Shown: positions 2,706-32,849 of the stretch, piece by piece
Layout: each line of letters opens with the position of its first letter
How positions within the stretch are numbered: position 1 is the first letter of the stretch
Assembly: GCF_002153745.1 (NCBI RefSeq)
Contig: NZ_JOPL01000050.1
Coordinates: 1 to 64,000 of the forward strand
Length of the DNA: 64,000 bases
Source: Acetobacter sp. DsW_063
Lineage (GTDB): Bacteria > Pseudomonadota > Alphaproteobacteria > Acetobacterales > Acetobacteraceae
Reading direction: 5' to 3'
Notes under the pieces: generated by a model
Told to the model about the DNA's origin: nothing
Databases searched by the model: none
What the model saw: only the letters and a program-made list of their open reading frames with translations
Position numbers and translations under genes: made by a program

Positions 2706-3968
2706 TCAATACAGCAGATAAGGACGGCGGACGCGGGCGAACGTCGCCGTTTCAGCGTTCCATTGACGCAGGGTCGCGGCAGGCGGCGTTCCGGCGTTCA
2801 CTGATTGCCGCAGGGTGTCCGTTCCCGCCAGCCTGTCTATCGCGCGTCCTTCCTCGCGCCACGCAAAACCGGGCCAGACGGCCTTCGCCGCGAGCAGCAA
2901 CGCGACGCCGAGGGCTACCGGATTGAAACGCTGGGGATCAGTCACCAGCATCTGCGCCCCTAGCACCTCTCGGCCCATGAAAACGGAAGAGGAGGGCGTA
3001 AAACTTGTCTCCCGAAATCCGACGCCGGGAAGCGAGAAATCGTTAAGCTGTCGGACGAATGCCGATGAATCGAGATCCGGCGCGCCTGCGAGTTCGAATG
3101 GCGTTGTGGTGCCGCGTCCAAGGGACAGAGGCGTCCCTTCCAGCAGGCATACGCCGGGATAGAGAGTCGCTGTCATTGGGGCCGGCATGTTCGGGCTCGG
3201 GGGCACCCACGCCAGCCCGGTTTCGCCAAACGTCATCCAGCGCCGCCAGCCTTGCATGCTGACGACGTCCAGACGCACCGACCGTCCTGGGTAATTTGTG
3301 TGCGGCAGGATCTCTGCGTTGAAGAAACGCGCCAGTTCGCAAACTGTCATGCCGTGCTGCAGCGCGACAGGCGCCCGGCCGAGGAAGGACGCATACTGTG
3401 GCGAAAGGACCGGACCGCGTACGGCCTCTCCACCCAGCGGGTTCGGTCGATCAAGCACGATTACCCGCAGGTCAAGCCGCGCGCACGCCGCCATCGCGTC
3501 GAACAGCGTCCAGATATAGGTGTAAAATCTTGCGCCCACGTCCTGTATGTCGAAGATCACCGCCTCGATGTTCGCTTGGACGAAAACCTGCTCCAACGCG
3601 GGGCCTGACAGTCCGTAAAGCGGCATGACAGGCAAGCCGGTCCGCTTGTCCTGACCTCCTTTTTCTGTCGCGCCGGGAGGGGCTGAGCCATGCAGCCCGT
3701 GCTCGGGGCTGAACAACGCACGCAGATCGACGTCGGATCGTTCGTGGAGAATCTCTGAGATGTGCCGAAAGTCGGGGCCGATACTCGTCTGATTGGCGAT
3801 CATGCCCAGTCGCATGCCGCGTAGCGACGCGAATCCCTGCGCCATCGCGACTTCAAAGCCGGTGCGCACCCGCTCGCGCCCGCTTTCGCATCGGGATGCG
3901 GCATGTCCGGATCGGGGGACAAAAGCCGCCGCTCCGACGCCGAGAAGGGCGCGACGCCGCAGGTTCAT
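2706..3968 (-). CDS. NamZ-like exo-beta-N-acetylmuramidase (DUF1343)
   Basis: A 420-residue exported protein of the DUF1343 family; the characterised member is NamZ (YbbC) of Bacillus subtilis, an exo-beta-N-acetylmuramidase that removes terminal MurNAc from peptidoglycan fragments. Visible family marks are LGMIANQTSIG, FSPEHGLHGSAPPG, IFDIQDVGARFYTYIWT, VLDRPNPLGG, GLAWVPPSPNMP and the GRGTTTPFE segment. The N-terminus (RRRALLGVGAAAF, then HAASR) looks like a twin-arginine or Sec signal peptide, so the enzyme probably acts in the periplasm. The ATG at 3968 places this signal at the N-terminus; a start at 4115 would prepend 49 residues. A role in wall recycling is inference from the family. 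Confidence 0.85.
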   Translation of the reverse strand: MNLRRRALLGVGAAAFVPRSGHAASRCESGRERVRTGFEVAMAQGFASLRGMRLGMIANQTSIGPDFRHISEILHERSDVDLRALFSPEHGLHGSAPPGATEKGGQDKRTGLPVMPLYGLSGPALEQVFVQANIEAVIFDIQDVGARFYTYIWTLFDAMAACARLDLRVIVLDRPNPLGGEAVRGPVLSPQYASFLGRAPVALQHGMTVCELARFFNAEILPHTNYPGRSVRLDVVSMQGWRRWMTFGETGLAWVPPSPNMPAPMTATLYPGVCLLEGTPLSLGRGTTTPFELAGAPDLDSSAFVRQLNDFSLPGVGFRETSFTPSSSVFMGREVLGAQMLVTDPQRFNPVALGVALLLAAKAVWPGFAWREEGRAIDRLAGTDTLRQSVNAGTPPAATLRQWNAETATFARVRRPYLLY

Positions 3969-4105
3969 TCCGCAAGGTTCATAAGCCGGGGTGGAAAACC
4001 CGGTCGCGAACGACCACATAGGGTTCGACCGGGGCTTGGCGCTTTCGCGTCGTAGCTTCTGCTGTTTGTCGGCAGAGCGTCGTCCATCAGAATCCGAGGC
4101 CGTAA

Positions 4106-4252
4106 TTGCGCTCATTGATCCGAAAGCCCCTTCTTTTGCTCCCGCTTCTCATCCTGAGTGCATGTTATGGCGGCCGTTATCACCACCACCATCACCGGCG
4201 CGGGGGTTACTCGTCTCCTCCGCCAGCAGCACCACCGCCGCGAGGGTGGTGA
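4106..4252 (+). CDS. Candidate 48-residue lipoprotein with His5 run
   Basis: A short frame starting at TTG 4106, with CGAGG six bases upstream (4095-4099); TTG 4115 is an alternative. It encodes a compact lipoprotein signal (IRKPLLLLPLLILSAC with an LSAC lipobox) and a mature peptide carrying five consecutive histidines, a GGY segment and a proline-rich end (PPPAAPPPRGW). Its last 46 bases overlap the end of the convergent lipoprotein gene on the minus strand. The signal peptide is the main support; nothing is known of function, though the histidines could bind metal. Confidence 0.45.
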   Translation: MRSLIRKPLLLLPLLILSACYGGRYHHHHHRRGGYSSPPPAAPPPRGW

Positions 4253-4569
4253 GTCCCCGTGTCAGGACGTCCGTACGTGACCTCAGTATCCGGCGTCACG
4301 TTGGACGTGCCGGGTTTGGGTAGAGACGTTCCTGCGTAAGGCGCGGGTTCGTAGCGACCGCCACGGGTGCGGGGCGCCGACGCATCGCTGTAATCTGCTT
4401 CGCGCTCTCGCCGTTCTTCGGCTTCAGCCGCCTCAGGAAAGTTTCGGCCGGGACGCTCCGGCGGCACGTCGATGTCCTCGCCCGCGCCGGGATCCTGAGC
4501 GGTGGGGCGGCAGCCGGTCGCAAGCAGACCCGCCATAGCGAGCAGAAGGGGGCGCCGTCCCGTCAGCAC
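4207..4569 (-). CDS. Small lipoprotein, Gly/Pro-rich, unknown
   Basis: About 120 residues beginning with a typical lipoprotein signal (TGRRPLLLAMAGLLATGC, lipobox LATGC) and continuing as a hydrophilic, low-complexity chain rich in Glu, Arg, Pro and Gly that ends in GGGAAGGGDE. I chose the GTG at 4569 because it puts a short basic n-region before the hydrophobic core. A GTG at 4623 also keeps the frame and would overlap the upstream Trm112-like gene by 17 bases, suggesting translational coupling. No domain is recognised. Probably an envelope protein anchored to the inner or outer membrane. Confidence 0.6.
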   Translation of the reverse strand: MLTGRRPLLLAMAGLLATGCRPTAQDPGAGEDIDVPPERPGRNFPEAAEAEERREREADYSDASAPRTRGGRYEPAPYAGTSLPKPGTSNVTPDTEVTYGRPDTGTHHPRGGGAAGGGDE

Positions 4570-5605: not shown

Positions 5606-6598
5606 TCAGGAAAACAGCAGGGAGGAGAGACGCCGCCGCGCGAGCAGCGTCGCCGGGTCGTCGTGTCCCCAGGACTCGAAAAATTTGAACAGAAGCTGCT
5701 TTGCGGCCCCGTCGTTCCACTCCCTGTCGGCGCGCAGTATCGCCAGCAGCTCGTCGGCGGCTTCCTGCTTCTGACCCGCGGCGTTCAGCGCATTGGCGAG
5801 CCCGACCCGTGCCTCGAAATCCTTGGGGTCCGCTTCAATGCGGGCGCGGAGCGCCTGCGCCTCTCCAGCTACGCGCCGACCCTCTTTCTTCAGTTCCAGA
5901 GCGGCACGCGCGCCTTCGATATCGGCGTGGGAGGCGATCGCAGCGGGGACGTCGTTCAATGCAGCCTCAGCGGCTTCTTCGTCGCCCAACGCAAGCATGG
6001 AACGGATCAGCCCGCCCCATGCGGTCGGATTTTCAGGCTCCATCTCAAGGACTGCGGAATAGAGCTGGGCCGCCTGTTCGGGCTGTTCGTCGTCAAGGGC
6101 CGTGCGCGCCTCAACCAGCAAATCGGCCGCAGGCAAGGTCGCGCCGCCAGCGGCTTTCAGCACGCCCTCGATGAACTTCTTCACCTGGCTTTCCGGCAGG
6201 GCCCCCTGAAAGAGGTCGAGAATCTGCCCCTTCCAGAACGCAGCCACCATCGGGATCGATTGCAGGGGCAGGCCGAGCTGACTCAGCTGCGCGACAAGCG
6301 AACGGTTGGCTTCGATGTCAATCTTGACCAGCCGCACGCGTCCGCCAGCCGCGTTAACGACTTTTTCGATAACCGGCGTAAGCTGTTTGCAGGGGCCGCA
6401 CCAGTCGGCCCAGAAATCGACCAGCACAGGAACCGAGCGACTGGCGTCGATCACCAGTTCCATGAAGTTGGCTTCAGTGCCGTCCATGACCGCCGGCGCG
6501 GCTGATCCGGAAACGGGAAGCCCGTCCTCCTGAAGCATTCCGGAGCCCTGCGTCGTCCCGGTCGCGTTCGGGCGGTTCTGGCCGATTATGTAGTCCAT
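5606..6598 (-). CDS. Thioredoxin-TPR co-chaperone (YbbN/CnoX-like)
   Basis: A 330-residue protein with a thioredoxin domain at roughly residues 40-150 and helical tetratricopeptide-type repeats at 160-325. The active-site motif is WCGPC at residues 66-70 inside VDFWADWCGPCKQLTP, so unlike E. coli YbbN (SQHC) it keeps a redox-active CxxC, as Caulobacter CnoX does. Members act as redox-regulated holdases that deliver clients to GroEL or DnaK. The ATG at 6598 avoids 19 upstream residues with no family match. The LON-domain gene follows within a dozen bases, indicating an operon concerned with protein quality control. Confidence 0.9.
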   Translation of the reverse strand: MDYIIGQNRPNATGTTQGSGMLQEDGLPVSGSAAPAVMDGTEANFMELVIDASRSVPVLVDFWADWCGPCKQLTPVIEKVVNAAGGRVRLVKIDIEANRSLVAQLSQLGLPLQSIPMVAAFWKGQILDLFQGALPESQVKKFIEGVLKAAGGATLPAADLLVEARTALDDEQPEQAAQLYSAVLEMEPENPTAWGGLIRSMLALGDEEAAEAALNDVPAAIASHADIEGARAALELKKEGRRVAGEAQALRARIEADPKDFEARVGLANALNAAGQKQEAADELLAILRADREWNDGAAKQLLFKFFESWGHDDPATLLARRRLSSLLFS

Positions 6599-6823
6599 CG
6601 TCTCGAATCCTGCCTCAGCTATGCTACGCCGCGTTCGGGCCTTCTGCCCGGACATCCTTGATCGAACTTCCGTCTAGCGCAGCGACAGCGAAATACAAAC
6701 CCGCGCTGATGCAGATCAAGAGAGGCCCAGTGACAGCCGCATGGCGTTCGACTTCGTTGCTCTATAACATTGGCGGCGGCGCTGGTTCGCGCAATATCCG
6801 TACGCAGAATAACGGCGAACGGT

Positions 6824-7573
6824 TCATGCTTTTGCGCGCTTCGGCGCAATCAGTTCCTTGTCGGGATAGAGGCAGTGCGCCGTGGCGACGCATCGCCAGC
6901 ATTCCGGGCGCCGCGCCTTGCAGACATAACGCCCCTGCAGGATCAGCCAGTGGTGGGAATCACGCAGCATGGGGAGTGGAACGCGCCGTTCCAGCGCCCG
7001 CTCGACGTCCAGAACGTTCTTGCCACGCGCCAGTCCCGTGCGGTTTGCGAGGCGAAACGCATGCGTGTCCACTGGCACCGCCGGTTCTCCAAACGCGACG
7101 TTAAGCACAACCGCCGCAGTCTTGCGTCCAACGCCGGGCAGGGTCTCCAGAGCGTCGCGGTCGGTCGGGACTTCGCCGTCGTAACGCTCTACCAGCATCT
7201 GCGAGAGGGCGACGACATTGCGGGCCTTGTTCCGCCACAGGCCGATCGTGCGGATAAACTCGCCAACCTCGTCCGGGGTTAACAACGCCATCTCCGCAGG
7301 TCCGGGGGCTTTCGCGAACAACGCGGGCGTGACCCGGTTGACTGAGGCGTCGGTAGCCTGCGCAGCAAGCGCTGTGGCGACAAGAAGCTGAAAAGGCGAT
7401 GAGAATTTGAGTTCGGTTTCAGCGTCCGGCCATGCGCGGGACAGGTCGGTGAGAAAAGCCGTGACTTCCTTCTTTGTCATGTCCCTCGGCGCGAACGCGG
7501 CGCCTTTTGGCTCCGGATCGGCGGGCTTCGACGTGGAGGATCTGGTTGCGGGCTTCGTTCTGGCGGTCGGCAT
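6824..7573 (-). CDS. nth: Endonuclease III (base-excision repair glycosylase/AP lyase)
   Basis: A 249-residue DNA glycosylase that removes oxidised pyrimidines and cleaves the abasic site. The helix-hairpin-helix LPGVGRKTA holds the catalytic lysine (about residue 151), the catalytic aspartate is in VPVDTHAFRL (about 169), and the C-terminus carries the iron-sulfur cluster loop with cysteines near 218, 225, 228 and 234 in the C-x6-C-x2-C-x5-C spacing. The first 30 residues are a basic, disordered leader longer than in E. coli Nth. It is separated from the thioredoxin gene by 225 bases containing no gene. Confidence 0.95.
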   Translation of the reverse strand: MPTARTKPATRSSTSKPADPEPKGAAFAPRDMTKKEVTAFLTDLSRAWPDAETELKFSSPFQLLVATALAAQATDASVNRVTPALFAKAPGPAEMALLTPDEVGEFIRTIGLWRNKARNVVALSQMLVERYDGEVPTDRDALETLPGVGRKTAAVVLNVAFGEPAVPVDTHAFRLANRTGLARGKNVLDVERALERRVPLPMLRDSHHWLILQGRYVCKARRPECWRCVATAHCLYPDKELIAPKRAKA

Positions 7574-7807
7574 GGGACGAATGTTTCACCGTTCCGGCTC
7601 CGTCGTCAAAAGACGTCTTATCTGGTGAGCTGTACGATCGGACGCCTCTGTCGGTCCTTGCGGTGGAGAGGTGCGTCGGCGTGTGAACGACGTGAGGGTT
7701 TCCGCCCGGCAGTTTGATTCGACGTCGAAAGGTATCGTGTGCGTTGCCCTCATCATGTAACAATGGGGCCGGGATTCAGCGATGCGGCGAAAAGGGGCGG
7801 GTGAGGC

Positions 7808-27094: not shown

Positions 27095-28129
27095 ATGCCG
27101 CGTTTCGCGGTGTCCTGTATCATGTTCTTCTTTACCGTTTGCAGCGCCTTCGGACAGGAGCCGGTCTACGGTAGCAACCTCGAGGGGTTTTCTTACCCTT
27201 TTCCGGTGTCTTACTTTTCCTTTGAATCCCAACGTTTGTCCCTGCACATGGCGTATATGGACGTTCGGCCAGCAACCCCGAACGGGCGGACGGTTGTGTT
27301 ATTTCACGGGAAAAATTTCTGTGCAGCGACTTGGGAAAAGACGATCAAGGCTTTGGTCGCAGGCGGGTATCGGGTCATCGCGCCGGATCAGATCGGCTTT
27401 TGCAAGTCGGACAAGCCTGAAGGGTATCACTACAGCTTCCAGCAACTTGCCGAAAACACTCTTGGACTTTTGAAATACGTAGGCGTGTCTCAAGCAATAT
27501 TTGTCGCGCATTCCACTGGCGGCATGGTCGCTGTAAGGGCGGCGTTGGCTTCTCCCGCCGATGTCCAGAAACTGGTGCTCGTAGATCCGATCGGGTTGGA
27601 GGACTGGAAGGCCAAAGGCGTTCCGTGGCTAAGCGTCGATGGTTGGTACAGGAAAGAGATCACGAATACTGCAGACAAGATAAGAACATACGAGAAAAAT
27701 ACCTACTACGCTGGGCAGTGGAAGCCCGAATATGAAATCTGGGTTCAGATGTTGGCCGGTATGTATCGCGGACCAGGACGGGAACGCGTCGCGTGGGCCT
27801 CGGCGCTGCTTTATGATATGATCTACACCCAGCCGGTCATGTATGAATTCGGGTCTTTGACTATGCCGACAGTGGTTATGATCGGAGACAAGGATACGAC
27901 GGCCATAGGCAAGGACCTTGCTCCTCCAGAATTACGCGCGGCATTGGGAAATTACCCGGTTATTGCACGACGGGCAGTGCAAGCTATGCCGGATGCGCAA
28001 CTCGTCGAATTTCCTGAACTGGGGCATTCGCCCCAGATTCAGGATGCTGCGCAATTCAATGCAGCTTTACTTCAGGCTTTAGCCCCCCGTTCAGACATCC
28101 AGCCGACTATAAAGATGCACCAAGGGTAG
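27095..28129 (+). CDS. Secreted alpha/beta hydrolase
   Basis: About 344 residues with a signal peptide (RFAVSCIMFFFTVCSAFG, cleaved before QEP) and an alpha/beta-hydrolase fold: oxyanion-loop VVLFHGKNFCAATWE, PDQIGFCKSDKP, nucleophile elbow VAHSTGGMVAV, acid in IGDKDTTAIGKD and the catalytic histidine in PELGHSPQIQ. The elbow reads A-H-S-T-G rather than the usual G-x-S-x-G, which still leaves the serine. Substrate unknown (esterase or haloperoxidase-like families look similar). ATG 27095 places the signal at the N-terminus, but ATG 27002 has the better ribosome-binding site (GAGGA) and would add 31 residues. Confidence 0.82.
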   Translation: MPRFAVSCIMFFFTVCSAFGQEPVYGSNLEGFSYPFPVSYFSFESQRLSLHMAYMDVRPATPNGRTVVLFHGKNFCAATWEKTIKALVAGGYRVIAPDQIGFCKSDKPEGYHYSFQQLAENTLGLLKYVGVSQAIFVAHSTGGMVAVRAALASPADVQKLVLVDPIGLEDWKAKGVPWLSVDGWYRKEITNTADKIRTYEKNTYYAGQWKPEYEIWVQMLAGMYRGPGRERVAWASALLYDMIYTQPVMYEFGSLTMPTVVMIGDKDTTAIGKDLAPPELRAALGNYPVIARRAVQAMPDAQLVEFPELGHSPQIQDAAQFNAALLQALAPRSDIQPTIKMHQG

Positions 28130-28226
28130 TAGCTTCATTCGTTAGATTTTGCGGGTATTTTTTTAACACGATGTAAAACGCTTTTTTACTTAATTGGCTC
28201 GTAGGAGGCCTAGGATCAGCCCACTT

Positions 28227-29249
28227 TCAGTTCGGCGATGAAACCGGCCGTGGGTCGTTGACCAATATTCCCATCTGCCACTCCAGTTCTTGAGCGGTAA
28301 GAGCGTAGGCGCCATTGGCGGCGGGCCGGATGGCGCGGTGCGGCGGAATCATCGCGATATGAATCTGAATGGCGGCGGCAATGCTGGCGGGCAATCCGGA
28401 TTTCCATGCCAGGGCGCAGATCGCTCGTGCGTTGCTTTCGGAAATTGCCCTCTGGACAGTCGCCAGTCTAATCCGGTCCGCAGCGGCGAGGGAATGCGCG
28501 ACTTTTTGGATGTCGCCCGCTTCAAGCGCTTCATTTACTGCGTCGGCGCAACCACTCGCTGTGGATACTCGCGGGGACGGCGGAAGGTCTGCGGCGGTAA
28601 TTTCTGAGGTTGCAGCGAATTCGAACGAGAGTTCTTTTTCGATTGCCAACCTTACTGGTGCAATCAGTGATGCACACCGCTCGCGTACCAGCGATCGGAC
28701 GGTGACGACGCAAGCGTGATCAAGGGAAGTGCGTCGACTATGATGCTTTTCCATCGCATCCAAGGTTGTCTCGATTACACGGCCTGTCTGGTCGGTGCGT
28801 ATGACCTCGGGCGCGGCCGAAACGGTGTTGTGAAAAATGACAGATGAGTCTTCATATCCTGTCAACTCGTCGTCGATCGTATTTTCGTCGAGCCCCGCCA
28901 TGAGGCGATTGAGGGCGGCGGGAGATTCAGAGAGGGGGCCGATGATTGAAATAGCCAGGGTATCGCCTGCGGCGTGGGCGATAATGCGTTGAGCCAGCTT
29001 CCAGTTTGAGGTGAGGGCCGCTGTGAGGGTCTCTTCAAGTCTGGAGACCAGCATCGCGATGCGTTCAGGATCATAGTTTGGGCGTAACGCCTTCACTCTG
29101 CGCTGCAACTCTTCGCATGCTGTCGGTGTGTTCTCTACGATCGTCAGCGGAACGCGACCGCCTCTTCTGGACTTGTTCGATGCAGCTTCTGGCGACAAGG
29201 CTCGCGTCGGGAGAATCTGAAAGAATTTCGGATCGAGAGATGCGGTCAT
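28227..29249 (-). CDS. DUF2336-domain protein
   Basis: A 340-residue mostly helical cytoplasmic protein resembling the DUF2336 family of alphaproteobacteria, recognised from the long helical-repeat-like region (LVSRLEETLTAAL, LAQRIIAHAAGDTLAISIIGPLSES) with IGPLSESPAALN and the C-terminal EWQMGIL. The function of DUF2336 is not established; members often accompany signalling genes. The ATG at 29249 overlaps the stop of the upstream PAS-GGDEF gene as ATGA and has GGAGG about ten bases upstream, so the two proteins are made together and probably act together. Confidence 0.7.
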   Translation of the reverse strand: MTASLDPKFFQILPTRALSPEAASNKSRRGGRVPLTIVENTPTACEELQRRVKALRPNYDPERIAMLVSRLEETLTAALTSNWKLAQRIIAHAAGDTLAISIIGPLSESPAALNRLMAGLDENTIDDELTGYEDSSVIFHNTVSAAPEVIRTDQTGRVIETTLDAMEKHHSRRTSLDHACVVTVRSLVRERCASLIAPVRLAIEKELSFEFAATSEITAADLPPSPRVSTASGCADAVNEALEAGDIQKVAHSLAAADRIRLATVQRAISESNARAICALAWKSGLPASIAAAIQIHIAMIPPHRAIRPAANGAYALTAQELEWQMGILVNDPRPVSSPN

Positions 29250-30688
29250 GGGGGTGATTCCTCCAAAGAGGCGTGCCAACGGGCGCCGCCAGCCAGTTTC
29301 ACGCTACGCATCGCCAAACTGGCGCGATCAATAAGGGATTCGATTGTTTCTCCCGTTTCCCAACTGCGGGTGGCGAGTCCGACGGAGAAAGTCAGGGTCG
29401 TGGGCGTCGCGAGAAATACGACGACGCCGTTCTGGCAGAATGTTTCAGCACGTTCTGCTGCAACGAAATGGTCCGCCCCGTCGAGCCAGAGGCCGAAAAT
29501 ATCGCCTCCGAGACGGCCGGCGAGATCGGTGGGGCGTATGGCGTTTCGGAGGTAGGTGGCGACTTGCTGAAGAGTGCGGTCGCCTGCCTCAAATCCCTGC
29601 GCCGCGTTGATTTCGCCAAAGTGATCGAGGCCGATGATCAACAGCGCGCCACTAAGACGCTCACGATCCAGTCGAGGGAGACGGCGGGATATTTCGGCGA
29701 TGAGGCCGGTCCGGTTGAGCATTCCGGTGAGAGGGTCAAAGCGTGCGTTTTGAGCCAGTGCTTTGTTGAGTGCCTCCATCTCTACGGCGGAAGCGAAAGT
29801 CGCCAGAGCGGCGTCTGCCAGATTGGCGTCGTCTTGCGTCCAGACGCCCAGCCCCTCTCTCCATAACGCCATTGCTGCGGACGTCGTGTAGCGAATGCGG
29901 CTGTAACAGAAAATGACGTCCCGATCTTCGATCTGCGTGACTTTTGGTGCGGTTAATGCGCCTTCTTCATAATCGCGTAAAAGAGATTCGATCTGGGTGT
30001 CGAGCGCTGATCCTTGCGCTGGAAAGCGATGTACGACGTCGTCGCCGACGTAACTCCCTGCTTCGAGAATTTCCTGTTCGGCGCATTCTGCGTCGCAGCC
30101 TGCCTGCCGCGCGAGCAGGATTCCGCCGGTGGCGCCGAGCATGGCTCCAAGTTCTTCAAGGGCTGGTGGGACGCCAAGCCGGAACATCGGGCGAGAACGC
30201 ATGGTCAGCGTGATGCGCCGGATACTCTCGCTATGGAGCCGTGCGATGGACAGGTCAGCATTGTTGTTCGCGTCGTCAGACACGTCGATGCCAAGCCCCC
30301 TTACCCCCGCGTGTCGTCCGGAGGGGGATTGCAGAGGCGTGGCGTAGATCAGCAGGCAGGCGAACGTACCGTCCGCCCGCCGGACCCAGCATCGTCTGCC
30401 ACGTATGGCGGCGCGCGTCTGGAACGGGTTGGGGCCGGGGGCGCTGTCGACGAAAGGGAGAAGCCGCGAGCATGCTTCTCCAATAAGGTCATGGTCCGCC
30501 CAGCCAAGCGTCGTCCCTGCGTCGAAGAATGTGAAACGTCCGTCTTCGTCGGTTTCGAAAATGACGTCGGCGACAAGCTGGGTGAGGCTCTTCCACCTGC
30601 GGCGGCTGGCCAGCAGAACGTCCATCATCTCGCCGTTGTTCGCGGGCGAATTTGATTCTGGAAAGAGAGGCCGAAGGGGGGTGTTCAT
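29246..30688 (-). CDS. PAS-GGDEF protein with degenerate GGDEF motif
   Basis: A 480-residue protein: PAS domain at about 25-145 (LVADVIFETDEDGRFTFFD), a GAF-like sensory region near 155-300, and a GGDEF domain from about 315 to 470 (ARFDPLTGMLNR, ILIGLDHF-type LLIIGLDHFGEINAAQG). The active-site signature reads GGDIF instead of GG[D/E]EF (near residues 391-395), losing the metal-binding glutamate, so diguanylate cyclase activity is doubtful. Five residues before it, RPTD matches the RxxD inhibitory c-di-GMP site, so it may bind c-di-GMP as a sensor. ATG 30688 is preferred over TTG 30703. Coupled to the DUF2336 gene and divergent from dapD. Confidence 0.85.
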   Translation of the reverse strand: MNTPLRPLFPESNSPANNGEMMDVLLASRRRWKSLTQLVADVIFETDEDGRFTFFDAGTTLGWADHDLIGEACSRLLPFVDSAPGPNPFQTRAAIRGRRCWVRRADGTFACLLIYATPLQSPSGRHAGVRGLGIDVSDDANNNADLSIARLHSESIRRITLTMRSRPMFRLGVPPALEELGAMLGATGGILLARQAGCDAECAEQEILEAGSYVGDDVVHRFPAQGSALDTQIESLLRDYEEGALTAPKVTQIEDRDVIFCYSRIRYTTSAAMALWREGLGVWTQDDANLADAALATFASAVEMEALNKALAQNARFDPLTGMLNRTGLIAEISRRLPRLDRERLSGALLIIGLDHFGEINAAQGFEAGDRTLQQVATYLRNAIRPTDLAGRLGGDIFGLWLDGADHFVAAERAETFCQNGVVVFLATPTTLTFSVGLATRSWETGETIESLIDRASLAMRSVKLAGGARWHASLEESPP

Positions 30689-30848
30689 ACCTGAGCACTT
30701 CAACGCGAAAAGGTTGAGGGCGCGTTAACGTCTATGCGTTGACAGGAGGGAGCGCGATCCGCATGGTCCGGCGACGACCGCGCCTGACGCGAACTCCCGG
30801 CCCTGCAGGGAGAGTTGATGCGCAGCCTATCTGCTGGACCCGAGGACG

Positions 30849-31697
30849 ATGACCGAACACGAACTGCAATCCCGTATCGACACGTTGTGGGAGGCGCGCG
30901 CAACGGTCTCTTCAGCCACCTCGGGAGAGGACCGCGCCGCGATCGAAACAGCTCTGGAGAAACTAGACTCCGGCGAACTGCGCGTCGCAAGCCCAGGCGC
31001 ATCTGGCTGGACCGTTCATGAGTGGTTAAAGAAAGCCGTTCTTCTGTCGTTCCGACTCTACGACAACGTGGTGATGGACGGCGGCTGCGCTGGCGCTCCT
31101 GCCTACGATAAAGTGCCGCTCAAGTTCACAGGCTGGGATGCGACAAAATTCGCCGCCGCAGGTTTCCGCGCTGTGCCAGGCGCAGTCGTGCGTCGATCCG
31201 CCTTTATTTCCCCGGGCGCGGTGCTGATGCCCAGTTTCGTCAACGTCGGCGCGCATGTCGGCGCGGGCTCGATGATCGACACATGGGCGACAGTTGGAAG
31301 CTGCGCGCAGATCGGCGCGAACTGCCACATCAGCGGTGGCGCCGGAATCGGCGGCGTGCTGGAGCCGTTGCAGGCGGCGCCCGTGATTATCGAGGACAAC
31401 TGCTTCATCGGCGCCCGGTCCGAGGTGGCGGAGGGCGTCATCGTGGAGCGCGGTTCAGTCCTCTCAATGGGCGTTTTCCTCGGCGCGTCCACCAAGATTG
31501 TCGATCGCGCTACGGGCGAGATCTTTATTGGCCGCGTGCCGGCGTATTCCGTCGTTGTCCCGGGGACGCTCCCCGCTCGGAAGACTGCAGGCGACGACAA
31601 CCAGCCCAATCCGGGCCTCGCCTGCGCGGTCATCGTCAAGCGGGTTGACGAGCGTACGCGTTCCAAGACGTCGATTAACGAACTGCTGCGGGACTGA
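30849..31697 (+). CDS. dapD: Tetrahydrodipicolinate N-succinyltransferase
   Basis: A 282-residue enzyme of the lysine and diaminopimelate pathway that succinylates tetrahydrodipicolinate using succinyl-CoA. The C-terminal left-handed beta-helix is visible as repeated hexapeptides ([76 protein letters not shown] in part), and the N-terminal helical domain contains LWEARATV and [17 protein letters not shown]. Followed 9 bases later by dapE, the enzyme that removes the succinyl group two steps on, so the pair is one operon. Confidence 0.97.
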
Positions 31698-31706
31698 TCG
31701 GCCCTC

Positions 31707-32849
31707 ATGGTCACGCCGCTCGACGTCGCCGGGTTGGCGGCCGCCCTGATTAGGATACCATCCGTCACGCCTGATCCGGGTCACTCGCAGGAGATGCTGG
31801 CGGGAGTTCTGGCGGAGATGGGCTTCGATGTTGTCCATCTTCCGTTCGGCGAAGGCGCAGAGCGAACGCCGAACCTGTTCGCGCGGCTGGGTTCCGGTTC
31901 GCCTCATCTCTGTTTCGCCGGCCACACGGACGTCGTTCCTCCTGGCGCTGCGACGTGGCGGCGTGATCCATGCTCAGGAACGATCGAAGACGGCGTCCTG
32001 TTTGGGCGTGGCGCCTGCGACATGAAGGGCGGCGTCGCCGCTTTCGTGGCGGCGGCCTCATCGTTTCTCGCCAGCAATCCCGTGTGGAGCGGATCGATCA
32101 GCTTCCTGCTGACCGGCGATGAGGAAGGGCCAGCCCGTTTTGGCACCTGCAAGGTGCTGGAGTGGATGCAGGAGAACGGCCACACGCCGGATTTCTGTGT
32201 CGTTGGCGAACCGACCAACCCATCGGTCATGGGCGAGGTCATCAAGATCGGTCGGCGTGGCAGCATGAATGCGCGGATCGTTGTCGAGGGGCGGCAGGGG
32301 CATGTCGCCTATCCGCATCGGGCCGATAATCCTGTGCACAGGCTCGTCCGAATTCTCGACGCGCTGACGGCTGCGCCTCTGGATGCGGGCAGCCAGTGGT
32401 TCGAGCCTTCGAGCCTGCAGATTACAAGCGTCGACGTGGGCAATGTGGCGACCAACGTCATTCCTGCAGCCGCGACGGCTGCTTTGAACATACGATTCAA
32501 CGACCTGCACACCAGCGTCTCGCTTGGGGGGTGGATTGAAACGATCTGTCGCCAGCATGCAGAACGCGTCGCCGTGACGACCGAATGCAGCGGGGAATCG
32601 TTCCTCACGGCTCCCGGCGGCGAAGTAGACGTGCTGCGGGACGCCGTCATGGACGTGACCGGACGCGAACCGCGTCTGGATACGGGCGGCGGCACGTCAG
32701 ACGCCAGATTCATCGCCAGATATTGCCCTGTCGCAGAGTTTGGGCTGGTCGGCGCGAGCATGCATCAGGCGGACGAGTGCGTGGCGGTGGAGGACCTCCA
32801 GACACTGACCCGCGTCTACGTGCGGTTGCTGGAAAGGATGATGACGTGA
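31707..32849 (+). CDS. dapE: Succinyl-diaminopimelate desuccinylase
   Basis: A 380-residue M20-family metallohydrolase that frees LL-diaminopimelate from its succinyl form. Metal-site and catalytic motifs: CFAGHTDVVPPG (His, Asp), RGACDMKGGVAAF (Asp), LTGDEEGPA (Glu pair), and the late HQADECV histidine. The dimerisation domain lies in the middle (residues 175-290). The gene starts just after dapD and its stop overlaps the next gene as GTGA. Confidence 0.97.
   Translation: MVTPLDVAGLAAALIRIPSVTPDPGHSQEMLAGVLAEMGFDVVHLPFGEGAERTPNLFARLGSGSPHLCFAGHTDVVPPGAATWRRDPCSGTIEDGVLFGRGACDMKGGVAAFVAAASSFLASNPVWSGSISFLLTGDEEGPARFGTCKVLEWMQENGHTPDFCVVGEPTNPSVMGEVIKIGRRGSMNARIVVEGRQGHVAYPHRADNPVHRLVRILDALTAAPLDAGSQWFEPSSLQITSVDVGNVATNVIPAAATAALNIRFNDLHTSVSLGGWIETICRQHAERVAVTTECSGESFLTAPGGEVDVLRDAVMDVTGREPRLDTGGGTSDARFIARYCPVAEFGLVGASMHQADECVAVEDLQTLTRVYVRLLERMMT

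Follow-up and report, generated by a model that had tools for sequence, protein, structure and literature searches.

What can a GGDEF protein still do once its active site is lost, and what does the gene that overlaps it contribute? This question is raised by two genes at positions 28,227 to 30,688 of a 64,000-nucleotide stretch of Acetobacter sp. DsW_063 (contig NZ_JOPL01000050.1), the whole of which is called the window here. Gene A encodes a degenerate GGDEF protein, and gene B a divergent protein of the DUF2336 family. By comparison with relatives in the family Acetobacteraceae and the class Alphaproteobacteria, we found that the pair of a diguanylate cyclase and a DUF2336 protein is an old inherited unit of Alphaproteobacteria, in which Acetobacter carries a degenerate cyclase. 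The features on which the argument rests are as follows.

29246..30688, minus strand: gene A, PAS-(GAF-like)-GGDEF protein of 480 amino acids with a degenerate active site and an intact inhibitory site (I-site) (open reading frame and Pfam)
30281..30595, minus strand: PAS domain, gene A residues 32-136 (Pfam PF00989, 23.3 bits, cut-off 22.6)
29789..30241, minus strand: GAF-like region, gene A residues 150-300 approximately, a weak label (position inferred)
29285..29743, minus strand: GGDEF domain, gene A residues 316-468 (PF00990, 94.8 bits)
29630..29632, minus strand: Gly353, replacing the first metal-site Asp of DxD (alignment columns)
29525..29536, minus strand: I-site RxxD, here RPTD, residues 385-388 (alignment)
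29495..29509, minus strand: GGDIF signature, residues 394-398, with Ile397 replacing Glu (open reading frame translation and alignment)
29246..29249, minus strand: ATGA overlap of the gene A stop codon (TGA) and the gene B start codon (ATG)
28227..29249, minus strand: gene B, divergent DUF2336-family partner of 340 amino acids, predicted to be all-helical (Pfam, profile and structure model)

Catalytic lesion and retained I-site

The preliminary description, made from the window alone, had reported a GGDIF signature without the Glu and, five residues upstream, an RPTD matching RxxD. Both observations were confirmed. Gene A reads RPTD-LAGRL-GGDIF, with the five residues LAGRL between the I-site and the signature; GGDIF was found in 16/16 Acetobacter orthologs, and RxxD in 60/60 gene A sequences of the family. 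A second lesion had been missed. The window reads IIGLDHF where intact enzymes carry DxD, which places Gly353 at the first metal-site Asp, a residue that we take to be Asp327 of PleD. In PleD, K442 and R446 are named as phosphate contacts (PMC3509222). Gene A has neither of the residues that mark an active diguanylate cyclase, the metal-site Asp and the signature Glu, and it shows two marks of an I-site receptor, namely lost catalytic residues and an RxxD placed five residues ahead of the signature. The loss of catalysis has strong support, and the gene A protein is almost certainly not a cyclase, so that the earlier claim to this effect is borne out by Gly353 together with Ile397. Gly and Val at signature positions 3 and 4, as in SgmT, were earlier shown to inactivate WspR (PMC3509222); compared with that change, gene A is altered at the fourth position only (to Ile), plus Gly353.

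The 38 GGDEF positions that are conserved in at least 94% of the intact family enzymes and at least 85% of the class enzymes were scored on 12 of the 22 degenerate sequences. Nine of them were kept in under half of these representatives (R327, D353, K358, D362, H366, E397, D457, M460, and Y461, in the letters of the intact enzymes and the numbering of the window). Another 24 were kept in at least 90%, including N361, D370, R392, D396, K464, and D388 of the I-site, and the I-site R385 was kept in 12/12. Activity despite GGDIF, alone or as one half of a heterodimer, would fit the kept third-position Asp and K464, but 21/22 degenerate sequences have lost the first metal-site Asp as well as the fourth-position Glu, several other positions of the active-site signature are lost too, and an active cyclase is very unlikely.

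The old active site could instead bind GTP or GDP without turnover and report this to the partner. Activation of an EAL domain by GTP binding to a GGDEF domain has been described (PMC10333796), and N361, D370, R392, D396, and K464 are kept in 12/12 representatives. However, D353 is replaced by Gly in 11/12, and K358, D362, H366, E397, and Y461 are lost in 12/12, so the contacts to metal and to phosphate seem to be broken. Gene A also has Gly where PleD has Arg446, a weak argument since Gly occurs there in 4/52 intact family enzymes as well. We regard a guanine-nucleotide sensor of this kind as unlikely.

The I-site, by contrast with these positions, is retained in full. All four letters of RPTD were found in 22/22 degenerate sequences, though the third letter is T in only 50% of the intact family enzymes. 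RxxD was present in 52/52 intact family enzymes but in 38/48 intact class enzymes, and therefore intact enzymes can live without it. The genome of the window (68.9% complete) has ten GGDEF matches and one DUF2336 match; RxxD occurs in two of the ten GGDEF domains, and gene A is one of the two.

The cyclase-DUF2336 pair in Alphaproteobacteria

In the 60 family loci that were sampled (roughly one for each genus, plus some extras), DUF2336 was next downstream of gene A in 54, which is 54 of the 57 informative loci. Among the misses, L124, L140, and L162 reach the contig end, and L141, L175, and L181 showed no DUF2336 in 3.9-6.1 kb. The ATGA overlap noted earlier in the window was confirmed, and this type of junction prevails in the family: the 54 pairs comprised 43 ATGA/GTGA overlaps, four TGATG/TAATG junctions, six starts at no more than 30 nt, and one other. 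The earlier suggestion that the two genes are probably made together is upheld in the form of a conserved, overlapping pair, and from the junction gene A and gene B are probably co-translated.

The distribution was then examined with PAS-GAF profiles. Both profiles include the window as a row, so its own matches follow by construction. The profile from seven Acetobacter sequences reached other genera from an expectation value (E) of 6e-51 downwards. The second profile (A4) has 45 rows, consisting of 44 of the 60 reference sequences and the window, whose PAS-GAF part is 24-37% identical to the other rows. A PAS-GAF profile, which leaves out GGDEF, matched 165/397 family genomes at E ≤ 1e-15, and PF10098 matched 179/397 at E ≤ 0.001. 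Both were found in 149 genomes, DUF2336 only in 30, PAS-GAF only in 16, and neither in 202 (Fisher p = 2e-58, with shared ancestry ignored). Some genomes of the PAS-GAF-only group, such as G295 and G375, do carry a partner that PF10098 missed. Of 49 Acetobacter genomes, 15 carry the pair, one (G117) carries gene A only, and the other 33 are without either gene; in G424 the partner gave just a weak, partial match.

At the class level, the 45-row profile matched 99/289 genomes at E ≤ 1e-15, the window's own genome included. Of the 79 other class genomes that matched gene A strongly (E ≤ 1e-25), 77 have DUF2336, and 67 further class genomes hold DUF2336 without such a match. DUF2336 was next downstream on the same strand in 48/49 class loci, the last 20 of which were picked from weaker matches (20/20 with DUF2336). 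One of these 48 loci, L242 (G592), has a frame break with a TAG in the paired GGDEF gene, and its DUF2336 frame is open. Both catalytic residues were intact in 52/60 family and 48/48 aligned class sequences (100/108). The preliminary description had proposed a possible sensor-effector pair of a degenerate GGDEF and DUF2336. Pairing as a feature of degenerate GGDEF proteins was rejected, as the degenerate form is one derived clade.

With the cyclase intact in all aligned class sequences, DUF2336 might regulate the cyclase in the way that SiaC regulates SiaD, instead of serving as its output, with a side role kept in Acetobacter. Cyclase-activating partners do exist, SiaC-SiaD being an example. 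However, nothing is left to regulate once catalysis is lost, yet the partner is found in 15/16 Acetobacter carriers of gene A, which makes a purely regulatory partner decidedly unlikely.

It had also been considered that DUF2336 genes could be equally common without a GGDEF partner. This proved true of the classical copies and false of the gene A family, in which DUF2336 is the neighbour in 102/106 informative loci of family and class combined. In 50 classical DUF2336 loci (20 family, 30 class), neither a GGDEF nor a PAS-GAF frame was found at distances of up to 1.5 kb; these loci are the top-scoring DUF2336 matches, not a random draw, and a few flanks were under 1.5 kb. These classical copies belong to a different, SpbR-type subfamily. 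Copies of this kind passed the cut-off of the SpbR model (NF052659) in 14/58 class genomes; G473 and G481 are examples, and the 50 loci include theirs. All six intact-pair partners tested matched this model (E 3e-30 to 3e-40), each far below the 400-bit equivalog cut-off. None of the four degenerate-clade partners tested did, the window included (no match up to E 0.01). SpbR has a link to PleD, on which no argument here rests. It belongs to a list of 26 dimorphic-development regulators that some Caulobacterales lack as a group, and most of the 26 are associated with cyclic di-GMP (c-di-GMP), SpbR being one of two not so far (PMC12700997, 2025). In two genomes (G525, C2:212245-213956; G685, C56:54161-56109), a PAS frame (A4, E ~1e-16) adjoins another DUF2336 copy, so the split between paired and classical types is not absolute.

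The gene order around the pair was compared in 21 larger regions, namely 20 other genomes and the window, with clusters named by Pfam on the members in L271. The dapE cluster was found in 17 of the 21 regions, and each of the argB, engB, and yidC clusters in 12. Where the order is best preserved, the unit is flanked by dapD/dapE (divergent) on one side and argB-engB-yidC-rnpA (convergent) on the other. Only the dapD/dapE side, upstream and divergent, is retained in the window; the argB side is not.

30849..31697, plus strand: dapD, divergent neighbour belonging to the ancestral gene order (Pfam and region clustering)
31707..32849, plus strand: dapE-like gene belonging to the ancestral gene order (clustering; Pfam M20 on the L271 member)

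From both position and sequence, the dead protein is an ortholog of the intact cyclases and not a look-alike. The reverse loss is found at the ancestral place in L263 (G003, genus g4; about 2881-4464, minus strand), where DUF2336 lies between argB-like and dapD-like frames and the GGDEF gene is gone. In L181 (G117; 6117-7637, minus strand), a GGDIF protein with Asp at the metal site is followed downstream by argB-, engB-, and yidC-like frames. Immediately upstream of the pair, and in the same orientation, is a PAS-EAL gene (L271:5522-7207, plus strand), whose cluster is also present in L268, L270, and L274 (Pfam on L271 only). Because it adjoins the pair in these four regions, some species may keep a c-di-GMP phosphodiesterase, the cyclase, and DUF2336 together.

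A single clade of loss and the changes after it

In a tree of 122 gene A homologs, from which L242 was excluded for its broken frame, all 22 degenerate sequences fell into one clade with a support of 1.0, so one loss is the simplest reading. The clade comprises Acetobacter and two related genera: the signature is GGDIF in Acetobacter, GGDVF or TGDLF in genus g56, and NGDLF in g86. Position 353 is Gly in 21/22 degenerate sequences; the exception is L181, with Asp, from the same genome that has no partner (G117). Because intact and dead orthologs share the gene position, this clade separates the needs of catalysis from those of signalling through the fold.

The dead GGDEF domain is under purifying selection, with its I-site and fold kept. 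At equal PAS-GAF identity, it was at least as conserved as the live domain in 5/5 bins; in the bin of 40-50% PAS-GAF identity, for example, the GGDEF identity was 0.725 for dead and 0.599 for live domains (6 vs 376 pairs). This identity comparison covers 11 of the 22 degenerate and 47 intact sequences with a partner, and its pairs are non-independent. Within Acetobacter, the ratio of nonsynonymous to synonymous substitution rates (dN/dS) of GGDEF was 0.006-0.061 in 9/10 pairs; the remaining pair, whose members are very close, gave 0.192. The corresponding values were 0.028-0.131 for PAS-GAF and 0.069-0.438 for gene B (ten chosen pairs, one with a saturated dS > 2). A decaying gene or pseudogene was rejected. 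Absence of both genes from 33/49 Acetobacter genomes would suit a gene on its way out, but the frames are open, with no stop within the match, in 16/16 carriers, and the GGDEF dN/dS is far below 1, so that decay is hardly credible.

Gene B shows a different pattern. At a GGDEF identity of 50-60%, the partners were 46% identical for intact cyclases (529 pairs) versus 22% for dead ones (35 pairs). In the dead clade, retention of the positions conserved in intact-pair partners was 12-25% within the first 300 residues and 56-61% within the last 110 (L128 numbering); the low value for the first 300 is partly lost sequence or uncertain alignment, because gaps of 17-41% are included. A C-terminal model built from 47 intact-pair partners found 7/7 and 14/14 degenerate-clade partners and 20/20 full-length class partners, with 27 more class partners cut by the locus end. 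Of the 50 classical proteins, 36 passed the threshold for this comparison, and the model also found 28 of those 36, though with weaker scores (best E 2.6e-9), so the C-terminal module is not restricted to the paired type. An end motif of the E-M-x-W-Q type occurred in 14/14 Acetobacter, 43/54 family, and 8/20 full-length class partners, and in 0/36 classical proteins. We read the alignment as suggesting that in the dead clade the repeats of gene B were rebuilt or lost and the tail was retained.

Such retention would also suit a scaffold, in which the dead GGDEF domain does no more than hold or position the DUF2336 protein, binds no nucleotide, and keeps the I-site as a structural relic. The partner stayed after catalysis was lost, and the C-terminal module is its best-kept part. 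On the other hand, RPTD became fixed in the degenerate sequences from a motif whose third letter varies in intact relatives, although ancestry may partly explain this, and 0/16 Acetobacter carriers of gene A are without another GGDEF. A mere scaffold therefore seems rather unlikely to us.

Proposed role of the pair

The reading that we prefer is a c-di-GMP receptor with a separate output protein. In the old two-gene unit, of which the Acetobacter pair is the version found in acetic acid bacteria, a DUF2336 protein, SpbR-like and with HEAT-like repeats, is dedicated to a PAS-(GAF-like)-GGDEF diguanylate cyclase, and the two genes overlap. In Acetobacter, the GGDEF domain would make no c-di-GMP but bind it at RPTD, as SgmT does, and the PAS and GAF-like part may modulate this binding. 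The DUF2336 protein would receive the bound state through direct contact, probably via its C-terminal module, and would then act on a further target. By analogy with PopA, PelD, and SgmT, from which binding at RPTD is inferred, gene A likely encodes a c-di-GMP receptor. That this receptor acts on DUF2336 by contact, as suggested by the pairing and the kept tail, is a proposal that we favour by a small degree. A source of c-di-GMP is likely, since each of the 16 Acetobacter carriers of gene A has one or more further GGDEF matches. In 17/49 Acetobacter genomes, no GGDEF match to the gene A query was found, and c-di-GMP synthesis may thus be lost in part of the genus.

Several points weigh against this proposal. 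None of the 52 intact family enzymes departs from the I-site motif either, so its retention is partly a matter of ancestry, and the kept N361, D370, D396, and K464 fit GTP binding. Each gene can also do without the other in places. G117, an Acetobacter with GGDIF, has no DUF2336 in 6.1 kb downstream, and DUF2336 is also missing from L141 and L175 in the family and from L234 in the class, where 987 bases were seen. Moreover, 30/179 family genomes with DUF2336 have no PAS-GAF match, and L263, the one of these 30 that was read, holds DUF2336 alone. The structure model of gene A (7 sequences) reached a predicted local distance difference test (pLDDT) score of 35.9 and was unusable, and gene order alone is no proof of contact.

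More tentatively, the paired type of DUF2336 could be an unrecognised class of dedicated cyclase partners across Alphaproteobacteria that dock via the C-terminal module; after the death of the cyclase, the I-site would have made the pair a pure c-di-GMP-gated switch, and the repeats of the partner would have been rebuilt for a new output. We think this wider picture possible and somewhat doubtful. If it is true, acetic acid bacteria provide a natural before-and-after experiment on the cyclase-DUF2336 pair.

Dead-GGDEF receptors that bind through the I-site are already known, and their rise has been reviewed (PMC10333796). PopA of Caulobacter is, like gene A, a dead GGDEF with RxxD in Alphaproteobacteria and a c-di-GMP receptor, said to derive from a REC-GGDEF protein (PMC10333796). 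It is REC-REC-GGDEF, whereas gene A is PAS-(GAF-like)-GGDEF with an overlapping dedicated partner kept from intact relatives. SgmT, a histidine kinase of Myxococcus, likewise has the signature Glu replaced (by Val, GGGVF) and an intact RxxD, and binds c-di-GMP through its I-site; its I-site mutants changed in localisation and not in the tested phenotypes (PMC3509222). In SgmT the output kinase is in the same chain and the third-position Asp is also lost, whereas the possible output of gene A is a separate protein. PelD of Pseudomonas has a GAF beside a dead GGDEF and binds c-di-GMP via RxxD. Unlike gene A, it is a membrane protein for Pel synthesis, and its active homologues, plentiful for gene A, are reported as not readily found (PMC10333796). 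ZMO1055 of Zymomonas (PAS-dGGDEF-EAL) is another alphaproteobacterial degenerate GGDEF with homologues predicted to be intact in a related genus; it is fused to an EAL phosphodiesterase domain, and the available part of the account mentions no DUF2336 partner (PMC10333796). GcbC-LapD and SiaC-SiaD resemble the pair in joining a cyclase to a physical partner, but unlike in the Acetobacter pair the cyclases are active. Their partners come from other families than DUF2336.

In the open-licence literature of PubMed Central (PMC) that was searched, neither DUF2336 nor COG5330 was named anywhere, and only SpbR of Caulobacter turned up as a named relative. Searches of the same literature by domain and by gene order found no account of a cyclase-DUF2336 unit. 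The pairing gives a concrete, testable role to part of a large unknown family.

The labels of both proteins need some care. The sole basis for the GAF-like label is a sub-threshold GAF_3 match in one relative, L150 (E 0.0023). Gene B scored 31.2 bits against PF10098, below the cut-off of 34.6 bits and over residues 236-300 only, so its DUF2336 label rests on gene order and intermediate sequences. The closest named relatives of gene B come from A. sacchari (95%) and A. nitrogenifigens (87%). The parts of gene B are as follows.

28257..28535, minus strand: C-terminal module, residues 239-331 approximately, the part best shared with intact-cyclase partners
28350..28544, minus strand: PF10098 match
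29202..29234, minus strand: N-terminal peptide DPKFFQILPTR, invariant in 7 aligned Acetobacter sequences

Searches with single partners gave no match for a class-level partner against the PDB (phmmer, E ≤ 1) or for a family partner (L128) against a plasmid collection. A promoter scan of 28000-31000 gave 0 sigma-70-like sites against 0.7 expected by shuffling, which is uninformative. The structure model of gene B was all-helical with a pLDDT of 63.2; Foldseek found no match to it in the PDB at E ≤ 0.001, and its best VIA hit (Z 6.9) was within the stated background of the tool for helical models. The DPKFFQILPTR region was modelled at a pLDDT under 50, and it is variant in L182 (G424); the remainder of gene B diverges, and this peptide could be a short binding motif.

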